Part shown: positions 1,469-16,842 of the stretch, piece by piece
Layout of the letters: each line of letters starts with the position of its first letter
How positions within the stretch are numbered: the first letter of the stretch is position 1
From: a virus
Virus record (IMG/VR): IMGVR_UViG_3300022562_000559
Span: 1-21,760 of that record
Length of the DNA: 21,760 bases
Reading direction: 5' to 3' (one strand)
The notes under the pieces: generated by a model
Database searches by the model: none
Told to the model about the DNA's origin: nothing
The model's input: only the letters and a program-made list of their open reading frames with translations
Program-made: the position numbers and the translations under genes

Positions 1469-1829
1469 CGAAGCCAAGCCTTTACAGACCCATCGAAAGA
1501 CGTTCGACCACGGTAAAGGTATCTTGATCGAAATCACGATGACCGAGCCTGGTTCCATACAGGTGTATACGTCAGTACCGGAATCCGAGGACTACGACGT
1601 GGGCAATATCATGCGGGAATTGACCAACAAGGCGCACTTCGCCGACTTCGTAATATCTGACGAAGAACAGAAGGTGCTCGCCAAGGCGTTCGCGGAGCTC
1701 AGGGAGATGAACGACTTGCCGCCTGCCCCCTTTCGTTTGTTTCGAGATGAAGTAATGGACCTGGTTTCGCATGGCGTTTCCCCTTCTATTGTATTGGGGA
1801 TACTGGTCCTGCTCGATAAAGACAGTTGA
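1389..1829 (+). CDS. Hypothetical phage protein, 146 aa
   Basis: ATG 1389 is preceded by AAGGAG (1377-1382), a good Shine-Dalgarno. The product starts with a basic, aromatic segment (MFRRFFSKVLGRSGG) and then has a mixed alpha/beta region. A hydrophobic stretch near the C-terminus (SIVLGILVLLD) is too short and late to call a membrane anchor with confidence. The perfect palindrome at 1452-1469 is read here as VTSKGN, the phase used by most in-gene copies. The gene overlaps the preceding one by 80 bp. It is followed by a probable promoter (1826-1854). Function unknown. Confidence 0.7.
   Translation: MFRRFFSKVLGRSGGIEASPNVTSKGNEAKPLQTHRKTFDHGKGILIEITMTEPGSIQVYTSVPESEDYDVGNIMRELTNKAHFADFVISDEEQKVLAKAFAELREMNDLPPAPFRLFRDEVMDLVSHGVSPSIVLGILVLLDKDS
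1452..1469. repeat. 18-bp dispersed palindrome, perfect copy
   Basis: GTTACC-TCGAAG-GGTAAC, the only copy matching all 12 arm positions. It lies in the overlap of two genes: it gives the stop codon of the gene at 848 and encodes VTSKGN in the gene at 1389. Confidence 0.9.
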
Positions 1830-1854
1830 CAAACGGTATGCGTTGGGTTATCGT
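1826..1854 (+). promoter_or_regulatory. Probable sigma70-type promoter
   Basis: TTGACA (1826-1831) is followed after 17 bp by TATCGT (1849-1854), which matches the -10 consensus at 4 of 6 positions. It lies mostly in the 54-bp gap before the gene at 1884, with the -35 overlapping the end of the upstream gene. GGT triplets recur at 1835, 1846 and 1857, an 11-bp period that may be coincidence. The -35 is perfect and the -10 is moderate. Confidence 0.5.
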
Positions 1855-1883
1855 CTGGTGTATTCTTGTAAGAGGGGACACCG

Positions 1884-5226: not shown

Positions 5227-5471
5227 GCTCTTTTTACCACGGCGGGCAGGCGTTCCCGTTTGTACCGCCATGCGATGATCGTGGCGTTCCCGCTACAGGA
5301 TACGGTAGCTTCGAATACGGCATGAACATGCGACAGTATTTTGCTGCGGCGGCGCTGACGGGAATGCTCTCCAACCCCAACGGGGCCGTCATGGCCAACT
5401 GGACGCCGGAAATGATCGCCGAGCATGCTTCGAAGATCGCAGATGCAATGATATTGGAGGTTTGCCGGTGA
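5223..5471 (+). CDS. Small phage protein, 82 aa
   Basis: ATGA overlap gives the start. The product resembles a widely distributed small phage and prophage family: a Gly/Pro-rich N-terminus (GGQAFPFVPPCDDRG), a central YGMNMRQYFAAAALTGML and a C-terminal helix PEMIAEHASKIADAMILE. The GMxxRxYFAAxAL core is its recognisable signature, and the function is unknown to me. Its final codons carry TTGGAGGT, the Shine-Dalgarno of the DNA polymerase gene, and its TGA is shared with the polymerase GTG start (GTGA overlap). Confidence 0.8.
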   Translation: MSSFYHGGQAFPFVPPCDDRGVPATGYGSFEYGMNMRQYFAAAALTGMLSNPNGAVMANWTPEMIAEHASKIADAMILEVCR

Positions 5472-7324
5472 AGATGATCGTTCTCGACTTCGAGACGTAT
5501 TACAGCAGTGACTATTCCCTGCGGAAAATGACCCCTGTCGAATACATCCTTGACCCGCGGTTCGAGACGATCGGCTGCGCGGTCAAGGAGGGGGATGGCA
5601 AGAGCTTCTGGCTTACACACGAGGAGCTCATCGTTTACCTGGCCGGGTTACCGGACAAGGTTTGCATTATCTCCCACAACGCCCTGTTCGACATGTGCGT
5701 ATTGGCATGGCGTTACAACTACGTTCCCCACCTGATGATCGACACTATGGGTATGGCCCGAGCCGTCCTGCAGTGCAAACTTCGCCGCCTGTCTCTCGAG
5801 TACATTGCCGAACATCTTGGTATCGGACTCAAGGGTAAGACGGTTCACAAGGTGGCCGGCATGGGGCTTGCTGCCATCAAGGCGGCGGGCTTCTATGACG
5901 AGTACGCCGAATACTCCTGCAACGACGCTGACCTGTGCTGGGATATCTACCGCCGCATCCGCGACATGGGCTTCCCGGTCAGCGAAGTCGCCGTCATGGA
6001 CACCGTGCTGCGCTGCGCCGTCAAGCCCAAGTTCGAATTGGACCGCACGTTGCTGGCTCAGCATCTGAATGACACCATCGAAGCAAAGCGCCAGTTGATG
6101 GAAGGAACGCTCGCCCACGCGACCAGGGATGATCTGATGTCCAACGATCGCTTTGCGGCGCTTCTCAAACTTCTCGGCGTCGACCCTCCGATGAAGACCA
6201 GCCTGGCTACCGGGCTGCCGACATATGCGTTCGCCAAGACCGACCCCGAGTTCATCGCGCTTGAAGAGCACGACGACCCGCGGGTGCAAGCTCTCGTGGC
6301 GGCGCGGCTGGGTATCAAGAGCACGATCGAGGAGACGCGCACTCAGCGCCTCATCAACATCGCCAACCTTACCTGGCCGGGTAACACCGCGGCAATGCTG
6401 CCTGTTGCCCTGCGCTTTTCTGGAGCGCACACCCACCGGCTCAGCGGCGACTGGCAGCTGAACCTCCAGAACCTCCCCTCCCGAGTGAACAACACCCTGC
6501 GGCGTGCCATCGTGGCGCCCAAGGGGAAAGTCGTGGTCGCCGTTGACGCCAGCCAGATCGAGGCCCGTATCGCGGCATGGTACTGCGGACAGGACGACAT
6601 GGTGCACGCGTTCGCGAACAAGGAAGATATCTACTCTTCCTTCGCGTCGACCGTGTTCGGATACCCCGTCAACAAGAAGGAGCATCCGTCGGAACGCTTC
6701 ATCGGTAAGACGGGCATCCTTGGCCTGCAGTACGGCCTTGGATGGATGAAGTTCCAGAAGACCGTGGCGCTGCAGTCGAAGGCCCAGGTGGGCACCGAGA
6801 TCATGCTGACGGACGAGGAAGCGGCGCGCGTCGTGGCGCTCTATCGCTCTACCTACAACCGGGTGCCGGCCAAGTGGCGGTTCCTCGATCAGATGATCGC
6901 CCGAATGTCGGCGGGCACGGATCTTGAAGACGGACCGCTCCAGTTCATGAAAGAGAAGATCCTCCTGCCCAGCGGGCTCTACCTGTACTACCACGACCTC
7001 AGGAATGAGCCGGACACGGGCAACTGGCGGTTTACCTACGGAGGTAACCCGAAGTTCCTCTACGGTGGCAAGCTGCTCGAGAACATCATCCAGGCTCTGG
7101 CGAGGATATGCGTCATGGACGCGGCCGTGCGGGTCCGCAGGAAGTACGGGTTCGAACTCGCCCTGCAGGTGCACGACGAACTCGTCTACGTGGTCGACGA
7201 AGCCGACGCCCCCGGTGTCGTCGAGGCTGTCATCGCGGAAATGCGGACGCCGCCGACCTGGGGGCTGGATATCCCGCTCGATGCGGAGGGGGGCATCGGA
7301 TACAGCTATGGCGACGCAAAATAG
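5468..7324 (+). CDS. Family A DNA polymerase with 3'-5' exonuclease
   Basis: Replicative DNA polymerase of 618 residues, comparable to phage T7-type polymerases. I chose GTG 5468, 7 bp after GGAGG and overlapping the upstream TGA, over TTG 5462 or ATG 5474. Exonuclease motifs: Exo I D7-x-E9 (VLDFETYY), Exo II H70-N71...F74-D75 (HNALFD), Exo III Y149...D153 (YSCND). Polymerase motifs: motif A at D360 (VDASQIEAR), motif B RFIGKTGILGLQYG with Lys414, and motif C H569-D570-E571 (VHDELVY). No 5'-3' exonuclease domain is present. At the position equal to E. coli Phe762 the residue is Leu418. The gene heads the replication block and carries in-frame palindrome copies at 6368 and 7031. Confidence 0.95.
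   Translation: MKMIVLDFETYYSSDYSLRKMTPVEYILDPRFETIGCAVKEGDGKSFWLTHEELIVYLAGLPDKVCIISHNALFDMCVLAWRYNYVPHLMIDTMGMARAVLQCKLRRLSLEYIAEHLGIGLKGKTVHKVAGMGLAAIKAAGFYDEYAEYSCNDADLCWDIYRRIRDMGFPVSEVAVMDTVLRCAVKPKFELDRTLLAQHLNDTIEAKRQLMEGTLAHATRDDLMSNDRFAALLKLLGVDPPMKTSLATGLPTYAFAKTDPEFIALEEHDDPRVQALVAARLGIKSTIEETRTQRLINIANLTWPGNTAAMLPVALRFSGAHTHRLSGDWQLNLQNLPSRVNNTLRRAIVAPKGKVVVAVDASQIEARIAAWYCGQDDMVHAFANKEDIYSSFASTVFGYPVNKKEHPSERFIGKTGILGLQYGLGWMKFQKTVALQSKAQVGTEIMLTDEEAARVVALYRSTYNRVPAKWRFLDQMIARMSAGTDLEDGPLQFMKEKILLPSGLYLYYHDLRNEPDTGNWRFTYGGNPKFLYGGKLLENIIQALARICVMDAAVRVRRKYGFELALQVHDELVYVVDEADAPGVVEAVIAEMRTPPTWGLDIPLDAEGGIGYSYGDAK
5634..5651. repeat. Degenerate palindrome in polymerase gene
   Basis: TTTACC-TGGCCG-GGTTAC, 10 of 12, with a spacer identical to the copy at 6368 but in a different reading phase. 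Probably a weak or chance copy. Confidence 0.5.
6368..6385. repeat. 18-bp dispersed palindrome inside polymerase gene
   Basis: CTTACC-TGGCCG-GGTAAC, 11 of 12, encoding LTWPGN in frame. The spacer is itself nearly self-complementary. Confidence 0.8.
7031..7048. repeat. 18-bp dispersed palindrome inside polymerase gene
   Basis: TTTACC-TACGGA-GGTAAC, 11 of 12, encoding FTYGGN in frame. It contains GGAGGTAAC as the junction copies do, although no gene starts here. Confidence 0.8.
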
Positions 7325-7327
7325 CCA

Positions 7328-7356
7328 TTGACAAGTATCGTAAAAGTATATATAAA
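7328..7356 (+). promoter_or_regulatory. Near-consensus sigma70 promoter for winged-helix gene
   Basis: A perfect -35 TTGACA (7328-7333), a 17-bp spacer and TATAAA (7351-7356, 5 of 6 of the -10 consensus). The region is far more AT-rich than the rest of the window. It lies in the 57-bp gap before the regulator gene at 7382. The direct repeats at 7333-7376 cover most of it. Confidence 0.85.
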
Positions 7357-7376
7357 GTGTAAGATAAGTATCGGGT
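7333..7376 (+). promoter_or_regulatory. Four 11-bp direct repeats, probable operator
   Basis: The tetranucleotide AAGT begins at 7333, 7344, 7355 and 7366, exactly 11 bp apart. The first and fourth units share AAGTATCG, the second reads AAGTATAT and the third AAGTGTAA. The array runs from the end of the -35 box across the -10 and ends 6 bp before the start codon. Eleven-bp head-to-tail units are the known geometry of PhoB/OmpR-type winged-helix sites. The gene downstream encodes such a fold, so autoregulation is likely (inference). Four units would suit two dimers. Confidence 0.75.
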
Positions 7377-7381
7377 GAGAC

Positions 7382-7642
7382 ATGAGCGAGATCGTAGCAC
7401 TTCAGAAGAAATTCGATCTGCCGACTTCCTTGGCGAAGCTGTTGCTCTTGCTTGCCAAGAACGAAAACGTCACCAATGGCGACATCGAGTCTACCGGCAA
7501 GATCACCAAGGAGGCGAAGGGCGCCGTGTGGCGGCTGCGCAGGTCCGTCGCAGTACACGGAATCACCGTTCGGTCCCGTCGTGATGTAGGATACTGGCTC
7601 GAGGACGAGGATCGGGCCAAGGTCATGGATGCAATCAAGTGA
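7382..7642 (+). CDS. Winged-helix (OmpR/PhoB C-terminal type) regulator, 86 aa
   Basis: A stand-alone DNA-binding domain without a receiver domain. The layout matches Trans_Reg_C: helix 1 LPTSLAKLLLLLAKNENV (about residues 13-30), helix 2 NGDIESTG, recognition helix KEAKGAVWRLRRSVAVHG (about 43-60), and wing ITVRSRRDVGYWL (61-73), comparable to the family's hxxLRxKL...xTVRGxGYxL. ATG 7382 follows GGGTGAG. It has its own promoter with an 11-bp repeat array and is followed at once by a palindrome copy and a strong terminator, so it forms an isolated regulatory unit. It probably controls its own promoter. Wider targets are unknown. Confidence 0.85.
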   Translation: MSEIVALQKKFDLPTSLAKLLLLLAKNENVTNGDIESTGKITKEAKGAVWRLRRSVAVHGITVRSRRDVGYWLEDEDRAKVMDAIK

Positions 7643-7660: not shown

Positions 7661-7698
7661 GGCCGGTTGCCTCTGGCCGGAAACGCCGCATCCCCCTG

Positions 7699-7754
7699 AA
7701 CTTCCCCCTGACCGGATTGGACTGCAAAGCCTTGATGGTCGGGGGGAGTTTTTT
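7699..7754 (+). terminator. Intrinsic terminator
   Basis: The arm AACTTCCCCCTGACC (7699-7713) pairs with GGTC (7737-7740) plus GGGGGGAGTT (7741-7750), giving about 14 bp with two G-U pairs and one unpaired base or shift, and a loop of about 23 nt. Six T residues (7749-7754) follow. It isolates the winged-helix gene from the block at 7770. The stretch 7661-7698 holds no gene; it includes a GGCC...GGCC self-complementary segment. Confidence 0.8.
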
Positions 7755-7769
7755 CAAAAAGGAAACGTC

Positions 7770-13069: not shown

Positions 13070-15931
13070 GTGCTTGAGCATGCACGTATGTTTCTTGCCC
13101 GAGTTATGCCTGAGAATTTCGGGCCGGGCGCTTACATCAACGTCCATTGGGCCGGACCGGCCAAGGACGACCCTTCGAAGAAATTTTGGGATGGCCGGGC
13201 CTGCGAGACGATCGACGATGCAGTCCGCACCATCGCATGGGCGAACACGCTGGGGCAGAAGGACATCTATGTTTGCATGAGCCTTCAGGCGAAATGCGAA
13301 GAGAAGGTGTCAACCAAGGGCAACGTCTACAAGCGAGCCCTGCGGCTGGCCGAAGACGTCGTGGCCATCCGCTCGCTTTTCATCGACGTAGACGTCAAGC
13401 CAGGCGCGTATGAAACAACCGATGCGGCCATGGAGGCCCTGCGGGCCTTTGTCGAGGCCACCGGCATGCCCATACCCTCTGCCGTTGTCATGTCGGGTTC
13501 TGGCGGCTTCCACGTCCATTGGGCGCTGGACCGCGACCTCACTCGTGCCGAATGGCAAGAGTTTTCATACCGGCTCGCGGCCGCAACCTTGGCCACCGGC
13601 CTGCAGACAGACAGCCAGTGCACCATCGACTCGGCGCGCATCCTGCGTGTACCTGGAACGCTGAACCATAAGCATGAGGTACCCCGCGAGGTAACTCTGT
13701 TCAGCCTCGGGGACCGGGTCAGCACCGATCAGGTCGTGGCCGCGCTGTCCAAGTACGATCCCGTGGCAGCGCCGGCTCCGGCCAACCACTTCCCCGAGAA
13801 CGATGATCTCGGCGCGAACATGCCCGTCGGTCCCATAGATATTACCCTGGAGACGGCGGCCAAGAACTGCCCGTTCATCGGGCGGACCGTCGACACAGGC
13901 GGGAAGGACAACACGCAGCCCTTGTGGTTCCTGACCGCCAGCATCGCAACATTCCTTCGTGAGAAACGTGACGCGCTGCACCTGATGTCGAACCAGCACC
14001 CCGGGTACACGCCTGTTGAAACAGACAGGCTGTACGACCGGGTCGAGGCGACCAAGTTGAAAAGGGATATCGGATGGCCCAAATGCCAGAAGATCGCCCT
14101 GTCAGGAGCGCCCGAGTGTGCAAGCTGCCCCCTTCTGGCGCAGAACAAATCCCCCCTGAACTTCTCGACAAACGACCACAATATCGCCGCTGATATCGAC
14201 GCCACGCTCCCGAAGCAGTATGTTAGGACGAAGGACGGGACGATCCATGTCAAGACGGTTGACGATGATGGTACTCAACTCCTCATCCCGATATCGCACT
14301 ATCCCATCCTCAACGGATGGCTCTCGAATAACCCGTGGACATTCCACCTTGTCACCAAGGACGAGCACGATCGTCGTGTCGTTATGGAGGTACCTACCGA
14401 GGTAATCACCGGGAAGGACGGCTTCAGCAAGTATCTCGGGGCCAACGGCTTCTTCCTGACCGACAAGCAGTACAAGATCATGAAGGAGTTTTTCGTGTCC
14501 TGGATACAGAAGCTGCAGACCCACAAGGAGCGCGTGATCTCATCGGCGCCGTTCGGATGGTCAATCGTCGACAGTCGCATCGAGGGCTTCGCCTACGGTG
14601 GCAGGGTGTGGATGCCATCGGGTGACCGTCCGGCTGCCAACCCCAACCCCGTGCTGCAGGCGCAGTATTCCCCGAGGGGCGAGGATCAATACTGGAGAGA
14701 GGCGGCGCGCATCGTCTACTCGCAGAAACGGCCGGAACTGGATGCCATCCTCGCCGTCGCCTTCGCCGCGCCGCTGGTGCGCTTCACCGGCTTCCAGGGC
14801 CTCATCCTCAACGCTTTCAGCGCCGAGTCTGGCATCGGTAAGACCACGGCCATGAAAGTGGCCCAGGCAATGTGGGCGCATCCCGTGCTCGCCATGCAGG
14901 GCCTGAACGACACGACCAACGCGGTCATCAACAAGGCGGGTCAGATCCGCTGCCTTCCGATGATGTGGGACGAAATCAAGGGCGAGCAGCAAACCCGGAA
15001 GTTTTGCTCCATCGTGTTCGACGTCACGGGAGGCAAGGAGAAGTCCCGCCTGAACTCCGACTCGACCCTGAAGATGTCCGGCCTGTGGAATACCCTGCTG
15101 GTGTCAGCATCCAACGACAGCATCATCGACAGCATGGCGGCATTCGCGGGGTCGACAACGGCCGGCCTGTACCGCGTGTTCGAATACGTCGTGAAGAAGC
15201 CTGCGAACCCCCTGCAGAACGTCGGTGTGGTGCAGCGGTTGCTCGGCCTGCTGGATGACAACTTCGGCCACGCCGGCATGGTCTATGCCAAGTTTCTCGG
15301 TCAAAACCACAAGCGCGTGTCCGAGGAAGTCGCGGCCATGCAGGACCATCTGATCGCCGACCTGAAGGCCGACAGCGACGAACGCCTGTGGATGGGTACC
15401 CTGGCTGTCCTGATCAAGGGTGCCGACTACGCCAACGAGCTCGGGCTCCTCTCGATCGACACCGCCGCGCTGAAAAATTTCCTGTTGTCCGTGCTGGCGC
15501 ACATGCGAAACGAGATCAAGAACTCGCCAGTGGACATGAACAACGACATGAGCGTGTCGAGTGTACTGGCTGAGATCCTGTCCGAGACGCGGGCGCGCAA
15601 CACGCTGGTGACGAGCCGGGTGTGGGTCGGTCGCGGCAAGCCGCCGAAGGGGTCCGTGGCAATCAAGTGCGATGTCTCGCGCCTCGACAACATCGTCGTG
15701 CAGATCGGGAAGGAGGACAAGCTGATCCGCATCAGCTCGACTTTTCTGACTAGGTGGATGGCTGACCGCGGGTATTCCCGCAGCACGTTCGTGTCGAAGC
15801 TGGAGCGCGAGTTTGGCCTGCAGAAGATCAACGGGAAGCTCGGCGGCGGCACCGAACTGTCCTGCGCCATGGAGCACATCCTCGAGCTCGACGGCAACCA
15901 TCCAAAACTCGCTGCCCTGCTGGATCTGTAA
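13070..15931 (+). CDS. Primase-helicase fusion (AEP-type primase plus P-loop ATPase)
   Basis: A 953-residue protein. GTG 13070 is chosen, with AGGGG about 8 bp upstream; ATG 13088 is an alternative. The N-terminal third resembles archaeo-eukaryotic/RepB-type primases: metal-binding D106-x-D108 in FIDVDV, S-G-S-G-G-F-H148-V-H150-W, and R-I-L-R-V-P-G-T-L-N-H-K. Cysteines C267, C339, C350 and C353 (ECASC) could form a zinc or Fe-S site after the catalytic core. The C-terminal half has Walker A ESGIGKTT (K591), Walker B MMWDE (D634-E635) and a DUF927-like arrangement (NxTT...NSDSTLKMSG). It likely primes and unwinds at the fork with the family A polymerase. Palindromes at 13678 and 14389 use another phase. 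Confidence 0.9.
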   Translation: MLEHARMFLARVMPENFGPGAYINVHWAGPAKDDPSKKFWDGRACETIDDAVRTIAWANTLGQKDIYVCMSLQAKCEEKVSTKGNVYKRALRLAEDVVAIRSLFIDVDVKPGAYETTDAAMEALRAFVEATGMPIPSAVVMSGSGGFHVHWALDRDLTRAEWQEFSYRLAAATLATGLQTDSQCTIDSARILRVPGTLNHKHEVPREVTLFSLGDRVSTDQVVAALSKYDPVAAPAPANHFPENDDLGANMPVGPIDITLETAAKNCPFIGRTVDTGGKDNTQPLWFLTASIATFLREKRDALHLMSNQHPGYTPVETDRLYDRVEATKLKRDIGWPKCQKIALSGAPECASCPLLAQNKSPLNFSTNDHNIAADIDATLPKQYVRTKDGTIHVKTVDDDGTQLLIPISHYPILNGWLSNNPWTFHLVTKDEHDRRVVMEVPTEVITGKDGFSKYLGANGFFLTDKQYKIMKEFFVSWIQKLQTHKERVISSAPFGWSIVDSRIEGFAYGGRVWMPSGDRPAANPNPVLQAQYSPRGEDQYWREAARIVYSQKRPELDAILAVAFAAPLVRFTGFQGLILNAFSAESGIGKTTAMKVAQAMWAHPVLAMQGLNDTTNAVINKAGQIRCLPMMWDEIKGEQQTRKFCSIVFDVTGGKEKSRLNSDSTLKMSGLWNTLLVSASNDSIIDSMAAFAGSTTAGLYRVFEYVVKKPANPLQNVGVVQRLLGLLDDNFGHAGMVYAKFLGQNHKRVSEEVAAMQDHLIADLKADSDERLWMGTLAVLIKGADYANELGLLSIDTAALKNFLLSVLAHMRNEIKNSPVDMNNDMSVSSVLAEILSETRARNTLVTSRVWVGRGKPPKGSVAIKCDVSRLDNIVVQIGKEDKLIRISSTFLTRWMADRGYSRSTFVSKLEREFGLQKINGKLGGGTELSCAMEHILELDGNHPKLAALLDL
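13678..13695. repeat. 18-bp dispersed palindrome inside primase gene
   Basis: GGTACC-CCGCGA-GGTAAC, 11 of 12. Read in the alternative open phase (VPREVT). Confidence 0.8.
14389..14406. repeat. 18-bp dispersed palindrome inside primase gene
   Basis: GGTACC-TACCGA-GGTAAT, 10 of 12. Same alternative phase as the copy at 13678 (VPTEVI), with the same GGTACC left arm. Confidence 0.7.
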
Positions 15932-16167: not shown

Positions 16168-16333
16168 GACGACGAAAATCCGGTTCACCCCGCTCACCAC
16201 GATGCTGATTGGATTATCGGATGAGCACATCGCGGCACTGTACCGGGTGGCCAAAACAAGAGGCAGAGCATTCTTTACGGACCCCTATAACATGATGGAA
16301 CTCCGTGAAGAACTTAGAAAGAGGAACATGTAA
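16148..16333 (+). CDS. Small basic phage protein, 61 aa
   Basis: ATG 16148 follows GGGAG (16135-16139) and overlaps the upstream gene by 20 bp; ATG 16157 is a possible later start. The product is rich in Arg, Lys and Met, with KRKTTKIRFTPLTTML and a C-terminal helix MMELREELRKRNM. No recognised domain. TAATG overlap couples it to the HTH gene at 16333, so it may act with that protein. Function unknown. Confidence 0.65.
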   Translation: MASMKRKTTKIRFTPLTTMLIGLSDEHIAALYRVAKTRGRAFFTDPYNMMELREELRKRNM

Positions 16334-16842
16334 TGTTGATCACAAAACGTCGCTACGAGCAGGTAGACGAGCTCCTGGCGCAGGGGAAAAGTCGTCGAGA
16401 AGTTGCCGATGAACTCGGCGTATCGCTCAACACCGTCCATTCGATGGTGCGATACAAGAAGGAAGTCGAAGCTGGTGACAGCTCCAACGGCTACAAGGTC
16501 GAGGGGCGCGCGCAGAAAGTCGCCGAACTCCGCAAACAAGGGCTGACCTTTGATGCGATCGGCGAGAAACTCGGCTGCAGTGCGGACGGCGCCCGCAGGT
16601 CGTACAGGTCAGCCGTCGACAGGGGGCTCATCGAACCGGTGTGGAGGTTCCGGCCAGGCCGGACAGCACATCACGTCGTGAGAACGAGCAACGTGCCCCG
16701 CGGCCGCGTGACCGACATACTGGAGGAACTCCCTGCGGATATCGGACGGGAACTGGTGAAACTTACCCCGGTAGGTAAAGCCATCACGGCCGGCCTGATC
16801 ATCGTTCTGAAGGCTTACTTCGACCAGCTGAACAAGGACTAG
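16333..16842 (+). CDS. Double helix-turn-helix DNA-binding protein, 169 aa
   Basis: TAATG overlap fixes the start. Two HTH units in tandem: residues 8-42 (YEQVDELLAQGKSRREVAD then ELGVSLNTVHSMVRYKK) and 61-94 (QKVAELRKQGLTFDAIGEK then LGCSADGARRSYRSAV). Both resemble resolvase or sigma-factor region 4 type tri-helical units. A basic linker (RPGRTAHHVVRTSNVPRGRV) and a hydrophobic C-terminal helix (about 148-162, possibly oligomerisation) follow. It is the last gene of the rightward block and carries a palindrome at 16762. A tandem HTH could contact both arms of the 18-bp element, so it is my preferred candidate binder among the genes visible here, though untested. Confidence 0.8.
   Translation: MLITKRRYEQVDELLAQGKSRREVADELGVSLNTVHSMVRYKKEVEAGDSSNGYKVEGRAQKVAELRKQGLTFDAIGEKLGCSADGARRSYRSAVDRGLIEPVWRFRPGRTAHHVVRTSNVPRGRVTDILEELPADIGRELVKLTPVGKAITAGLIIVLKAYFDQLNKD
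16762..16779. repeat. 18-bp dispersed palindrome inside HTH gene
   Basis: CTTACC-CCGGTA-GGTAAA, 10 of 12, encoding LTPVGK in frame. It is the last copy on the rightward-transcribed part. Confidence 0.75.

Follow-up and report, generated by a model that had tools for sequence, protein, structure and literature searches.

Tandem 11-bp repeats on the promoter of a receiver-less winged-helix phage protein, a putative relative of PhoB/OmpR effector domains

The window, a stretch of viral DNA of 21,760 nucleotides, carries a gene for an 86-residue protein directly behind a gene for a family-A DNA polymerase (Table 1). The polymerase stop (7324) and the ATG of the small gene (7382) are separated by a gap of 57 bp, two-thirds A+T, which contains a promoter and an array of direct repeats. 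The -10 hexamer TATAAA was skipped by a simple promoter scanner, as T was required at the last position. Read directly from the sequence, AAGT was found at 7333, 7344, 7355 and 7366, an exact period of 11 bp. The unit is described better than by AAGT as xxxAxAAGTAT over 7328-7371, with AxAAGTAT as the recurrent part. The array lies over the core promoter of the gene which it precedes, from -35 through spacer and -10 to the start site. Behind the gene, the hairpin of the terminator was calculated with -30.6 kcal/mol (z -3.7 against shuffles) and is followed by T6. Thus, the strong terminator which the earlier note had placed at the end of this unit was confirmed.

Table 1 Features of the polymerase-regulator region and of a second candidate array in the window
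Feature	Position	Strand	Basis or remark
Family-A DNA polymerase gene, start codon uncertain	5462..7324	+	Pfam DNA_pol_A 6e-31
-35 hexamer TTGACA	7328..7333	+	sequence
-10 hexamer TATAAA	7351..7356	+	17-bp spacer from -35
Array unit 1 TTGACAAGTAT	7328..7338	+	in register with TTGACA
Array unit 2 CGTAAAAGTAT	7339..7349	+	in register with TTGACA
Array unit 3 ATATAAAGTGT, most divergent	7350..7360	+	in register with TTGACA
Array unit 4 AAGATAAGTAT	7361..7371	+	covers expected transcription start, inferred from -10
86-aa receiver-less winged-helix protein (P0004), putative array-binding regulator	7382..7642	+	AlphaFold2, family profile, 14 orthologues
Intrinsic terminator behind regulator gene	7698..7755	+	hairpin 7698-7751 into T6
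Second candidate array, RGTW cores at 1824, 1835 and 1846; tentative	1824..1856	+	TTGACA(1826)-N17-TATCGT, before ORF at 1884

Five invariant columns in four units of period 11 occur in the window solely for registers starting at 7328-7333, and a lag-11 self-match scoring at least 8 was found at one place, the 7328-7371 array. In 6000 dinucleotide shuffles of the 57-bp gap, five invariant columns in four units at this period were never reached; with all periods of 8-13 admitted, an equal number arose in 0.03% of the shuffles. The plain pairwise lag-11 score of the gap is weaker, with P 0.009, or P 0.11 if any lag from 8 to 20 is allowed. Together with the AAGT positions and TTGACA-N17-TATAAA, these shuffle tests bear out the earlier description of four 11-bp direct repeats over a consensus promoter.

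Rfam families were not found in the window. A second DNA-binding protein with two HTH motifs (HTH_23, 3e-9) is encoded at 16333-16842 and is a candidate alternative binder. A primase-helicase-like protein (DUF927; phrog_25314, 5e-270) is encoded at 13070-15931. Its homologue in the Rhizobium phages (MN988472, 42239-45322) is annotated as 'putative integrase', a label which is probably wrong, since a PF00589 domain was not found in this homologue. On the minus strand, 18725-21709 encodes a very large protein, the C-terminal part of which matches the DarB-like antirestriction family phrog_10089 (2e-31); matches to giant proteins of unknown function were also obtained.

No usable match in Pfam and PHROGs was obtained with the 86-residue protein alone. 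With 15 relatives, AlphaFold2 predicted a winged helix (mean pLDDT 90.3) with helices 3-11, 15-26, 32-37 and 45-57, strands 63-66 and 70-73 forming a two-stranded wing, and a C-terminal helix. The three helices and C-terminal beta-hairpin wing typical of OmpR/PhoB effectors are present in this model. The family profile reached NsrR, a regulator of the PhoB family (4.6e-4); weaker matches were to other response-regulator domains. Pfam Trans_reg_C was matched weakly by 5 of 16 family members (best 2e-4), the window protein not being among them. In the structure comparison BaeR (Z 8.3), NsrR (Z 8.0) and PhoP (Z 7.9) were found, but the fold search could not single out OmpR/PhoB, as TrmBL2, MotA, MarR- and ArsR-type winged helices were equal in score. 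The match to the activation domain of T4 MotA (Z 8.2, rmsd 2.5 over 79) reflects generic winged-helix similarity; unlike the window protein, MotA acts by sigma appropriation and has a separate DNA-binding domain.

An N-terminal receiver domain is absent, the 86 residues corresponding to the winged helix alone, and the orthologues (86-143 aa) are extended at the N-terminus only slightly, if at all. The N-terminal four-stranded antiparallel sheet of OmpR/PhoB effectors is absent, too: the model opens with helix 3-11 and has no strands before residue 30. Because this sheet is missing, the protein is, according to the model, a reduced relative of OmpR/PhoB effector domains and not a full member. 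Hence, the earlier assignment as a PhoB/OmpR-type domain with no receiver holds for a receiver-less winged helix whose profile reaches PhoB-type proteins, but not for a whole effector domain. Four orthologues (L008 2887-3213, L011 5944-6285, L089 6171-6518 and L098 6580-7008) have an extra heptad-like N-terminal segment of the REL/ALRARLRALE type, which could be a dimerising coiled coil.

Searches of viral contigs with the single protein yielded no close relatives, and an exact-sequence search for the window promoter gave no match. Orthologues were reached only through polymerase synteny, by searching for the polymerase first and then scanning its neighbourhood. In this way 14 orthologues were found, in Rhizobium phage RHph_TM3_14A (L002) and in L005-L011, L015, L087-L090 and L098; distant ones are present in L092 and L093. 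Most of them lie directly behind the family-A DNA polymerase gene. The window polymerase, the syntenic marker directly upstream of the regulator, is 50% identical to that of RHph_TM3_14A. L098, a related phage, is contig 42 (60,568 b) in the assembly of a bacterial isolate, Bradyrhizobium genosp. SA-3, and stands there as a contig of its own. Where whole records were scanned, one copy of the regulator gene per phage was detected. It is absent from four of five relatives chosen as lacking the gene; a weak match was seen in the fifth. The reading of the protein as a lysogeny repressor has little support, as an integrase is absent in 12 of 13 records and present in the L005 phage only.

The DNA between the polymerase stop and the regulator gene was compared for the 15 gene-bearing loci, with self-similarity at lags 5-30 measured against dinucleotide shuffles. 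Lag 11 was the outlier with a Stouffer score of 9.5, followed by lag 22 with 4.6, the rest reaching at most 3.2. A motif common to both halves of the pair was also best at lag 11, with 138 versus 112 +/- 4.7 in shuffles (maximum 124.6); lag 12 was next with 131.8. Across the relatives the unit core is RGT[AT]A, or about RGTWAY, with AAGTAT in the window phage. For single loci, lag 11 gave P<0.01 in the window, L005, L008 and L009, and P 0.08-0.17 in L002, L006 and L088. For L015 and L090 a signal was seen at lag 22 only. The per-locus test yielded nothing in L007, L010, L087 and L089; L010 and L011 are otherwise weak. Relatives with the gene but no repeats had been named in the earlier note as evidence against its reading. 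For the family as a whole this refutation did not come about, the spacing being kept, but L007, L087 and L089 have no defensible array, and that of L010 is weak.

The position of the units was compared as well. In the window, RHph_TM3_14A, L005, L006 and L088, -35 and -10 are near consensus and units lie on or between the hexamers; for L008 and L009 a poor -35/-10 match was found at the array. In L005 the strongest signal comes from an AAACC array that lies not on the promoter but upstream of it. Units and promoter do not always share the same strand, the units being reversed in RHph_TM3_14A, and the phase to -35 varies as well. The longest array seen, six consecutive RGTW units at 11 bp, runs through TTGACA-N16-TAATAT upstream of the orthologue in the phage of L088 (L149 5084-5150).

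The 11-bp spacing was further examined at promoters picked solely by their -35/-10 hexamers, 37 in gene-bearing phages and 45 in gene-lacking relatives. A first control with post-polymerase DNA was mostly coding and therefore weak, and was superseded by this promoter-centred one. At the promoters of gene-bearing phages lag 11 stood out again with a Stouffer score of 4.5, against 2.4 for the best other lag, whereas -0.6 was obtained for the gene-lacking relatives, which are on average more distant, so that clade effects remain in the association. With the five recognised own promoters removed, the gene-bearing phages still gave 3.4. The array is thus probably not private to the regulator gene, because other consensus promoters of gene-bearing phages show lag-11 repeats and those of gene-lacking relatives do not.

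In RHph_TM3_14A, arrays were found at three TTGACA-N17-TATA promoters, the regulator's own near 34598, where the orthologue is EVB41_062, and those at 20099 and 26537 (record coordinates). In the phage of L005 a TTGACAAGTAACCTTCAAGTAATTATATAG array precedes a nuclease gene. The promoter at 1826 is the sole other strong promoter of the window; its lag-11 z of 0.8 is not significant alone. The earlier note had regarded the unit as a self-contained switch. This found no support in that form, since similar arrays lie on these other promoters and since the regulator gene of several relatives runs straight into further genes with no terminator between. In the 723 kb from gene-bearing phages, at least three RGTWD units at lag 11 were counted at 12 sites, in the 524 kb from gene-lacking ones at a single site; this is supporting evidence only, because lag 13 gives 11 runs, the pattern was written after several sites had been seen and some sites lie in coding sequence. 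Lag 13 was rejected as a rival spacing, the RGTW runs arising mostly from GTTAC-type palindromic or tandem elements. Such elements were noticed in the window at 282, 2138 and 3479, where ribosome-binding sites lie within a GTTACC..GGAGGTAAC near-palindrome, and in relatives also in tandem at 13-bp spacing (e.g. L133 15121- and 13810-). As the unit core of several relatives, RGTTAC, is similar to the GTTAC half-site, the GTTAC elements and the 11-bp arrays may not be independent systems.

Every known binding site of an OmpR/PhoB-family regulator consists of direct repeats (PMC4832192). PhoP of M. tuberculosis binds as a tandem dimer to directly repeated motifs of 7 bp separated by exactly 4 bp, corresponding to 11 bp, and three and four motifs in a row are bound more tightly (PMC4832192). 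The window system resembles such effectors (M. tuberculosis PhoP, E. coli PhoB, KdpE) in its winged helix, its profile link and its direct repeats of 11 bp from start to start, sometimes three or four in a row. Unlike them, the 86-residue protein has neither receiver nor N-terminal four-stranded sheet, carries an added C-terminal helix and is phage-encoded. A further difference is the position of the window array on the core promoter.

The closest predicted viral structures are A0A6J5KXD5 (38% identity, TM 0.92) and A0A7S5QV85 of uncultured Caudovirales; A0A6J5NCT6, annotated as OmpR/PhoB-type, is a more distant match. Receiver-less proteins with an 'OmpR/PhoB-type DNA-binding domain' are known from uncultured Caudovirales by annotation only. 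A description of operators or function of such phage proteins was not found in the open literature, most subscription journals lying outside the search. P2 Cox and lambda Xis are small phage winged-helix proteins acting on tandem direct repeats, but their spacing and roles differ from the window system, and no sequence match of them to the window protein was found.

Taken together, it is rather likely that this receiver-less phage relative of PhoB/OmpR effectors binds the 11-bp units in tandem and acts as a repressor of its own promoter and of some others of the phage. Protomers would line up head to tail on the direct repeats, one per helical turn and on the same DNA face. Four occupied units from -35 through -10 to the start site would exclude RNA polymerase, and the regulator gene would limit its own expression. 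The same protein may act at a few other phage promoters with such arrays. Autorepression, proposed before, is the simplest reading and a sound one, because protein bound in a row from -35 to the start would stand in the way of polymerase. As the N-terminal sheet is missing, it cannot be taken for granted that the protomers contact each other head to tail as in PhoB.

It is unlikely that the arrays are operators of another clade-linked phage protein, such as the double-HTH protein encoded at 16333-16842, with the winged-helix protein doing something else. Such a second DNA-binding protein does exist in the window, and the association across phages cannot separate linked genes; but the highest density of arrays is seen at the promoter of the winged-helix gene itself, as would be expected if it were autoregulated, and the profile of the winged-helix protein matches the only family known for direct-repeat sites. 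That the protein activates these promoters, as PhoB does at pho boxes, appears quite improbable. PhoB-family proteins often activate, and the poor hexamers at the arrays of L008 and L009 would suit an activator. However, the near-consensus promoters of the other five phages named above need no help, their units lie where bound protein should block polymerase, and the varying phase to -35 argues against activation as well.

CtrA of alphaproteobacteria (TTAA-N7-TTAA) and PhoB are host regulators that use direct repeats of 11 bp; their sites would have the identical spacing, and two of the phages come from Rhizobium and Bradyrhizobium. That the arrays are sites of such a host regulator is very improbable: TTAA-N7-TTAA and pho-box pairs are both absent from the 723 kb of gene-bearing phage sequence, and of the three three-unit sites in the Bradyrhizobium assembly, the 60-kb phage contig has two and the other 8.6 Mb one. 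Phased A-tracts bending the promoter DNA with no specific protein are hardly credible, since the window units contain short A runs at 11 bp but the relatives keep the spacing with non-A-tract units (AGTAACCTTCG, GGTTAC, GGTGAAC).

Beyond repression by the winged-helix protein at its own and some other promoters, a regulon of the whole phage clade is conceivable, though doubtful. In this regulon unphosphorylated protomers, having neither receiver nor sheet, would polymerise at several promoters along arrays two to six units long, and the timing of each shut-off during infection would depend on the length and phase of the array.

If the binding and repression proposed here are true, tandem 11-bp sites would be readable without phosphorylation, receiver or N-terminal sheet, and the protein would illustrate how small a part of a PhoB-type regulator suffices. 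RHph_TM3_14A with its three array promoters would be a named, cultured model for studying regulation in a phage group that has received little attention. Furthermore, 11-bp arrays on consensus promoters would provide a simple marker for phage-controlled promoters in metagenomic phages.
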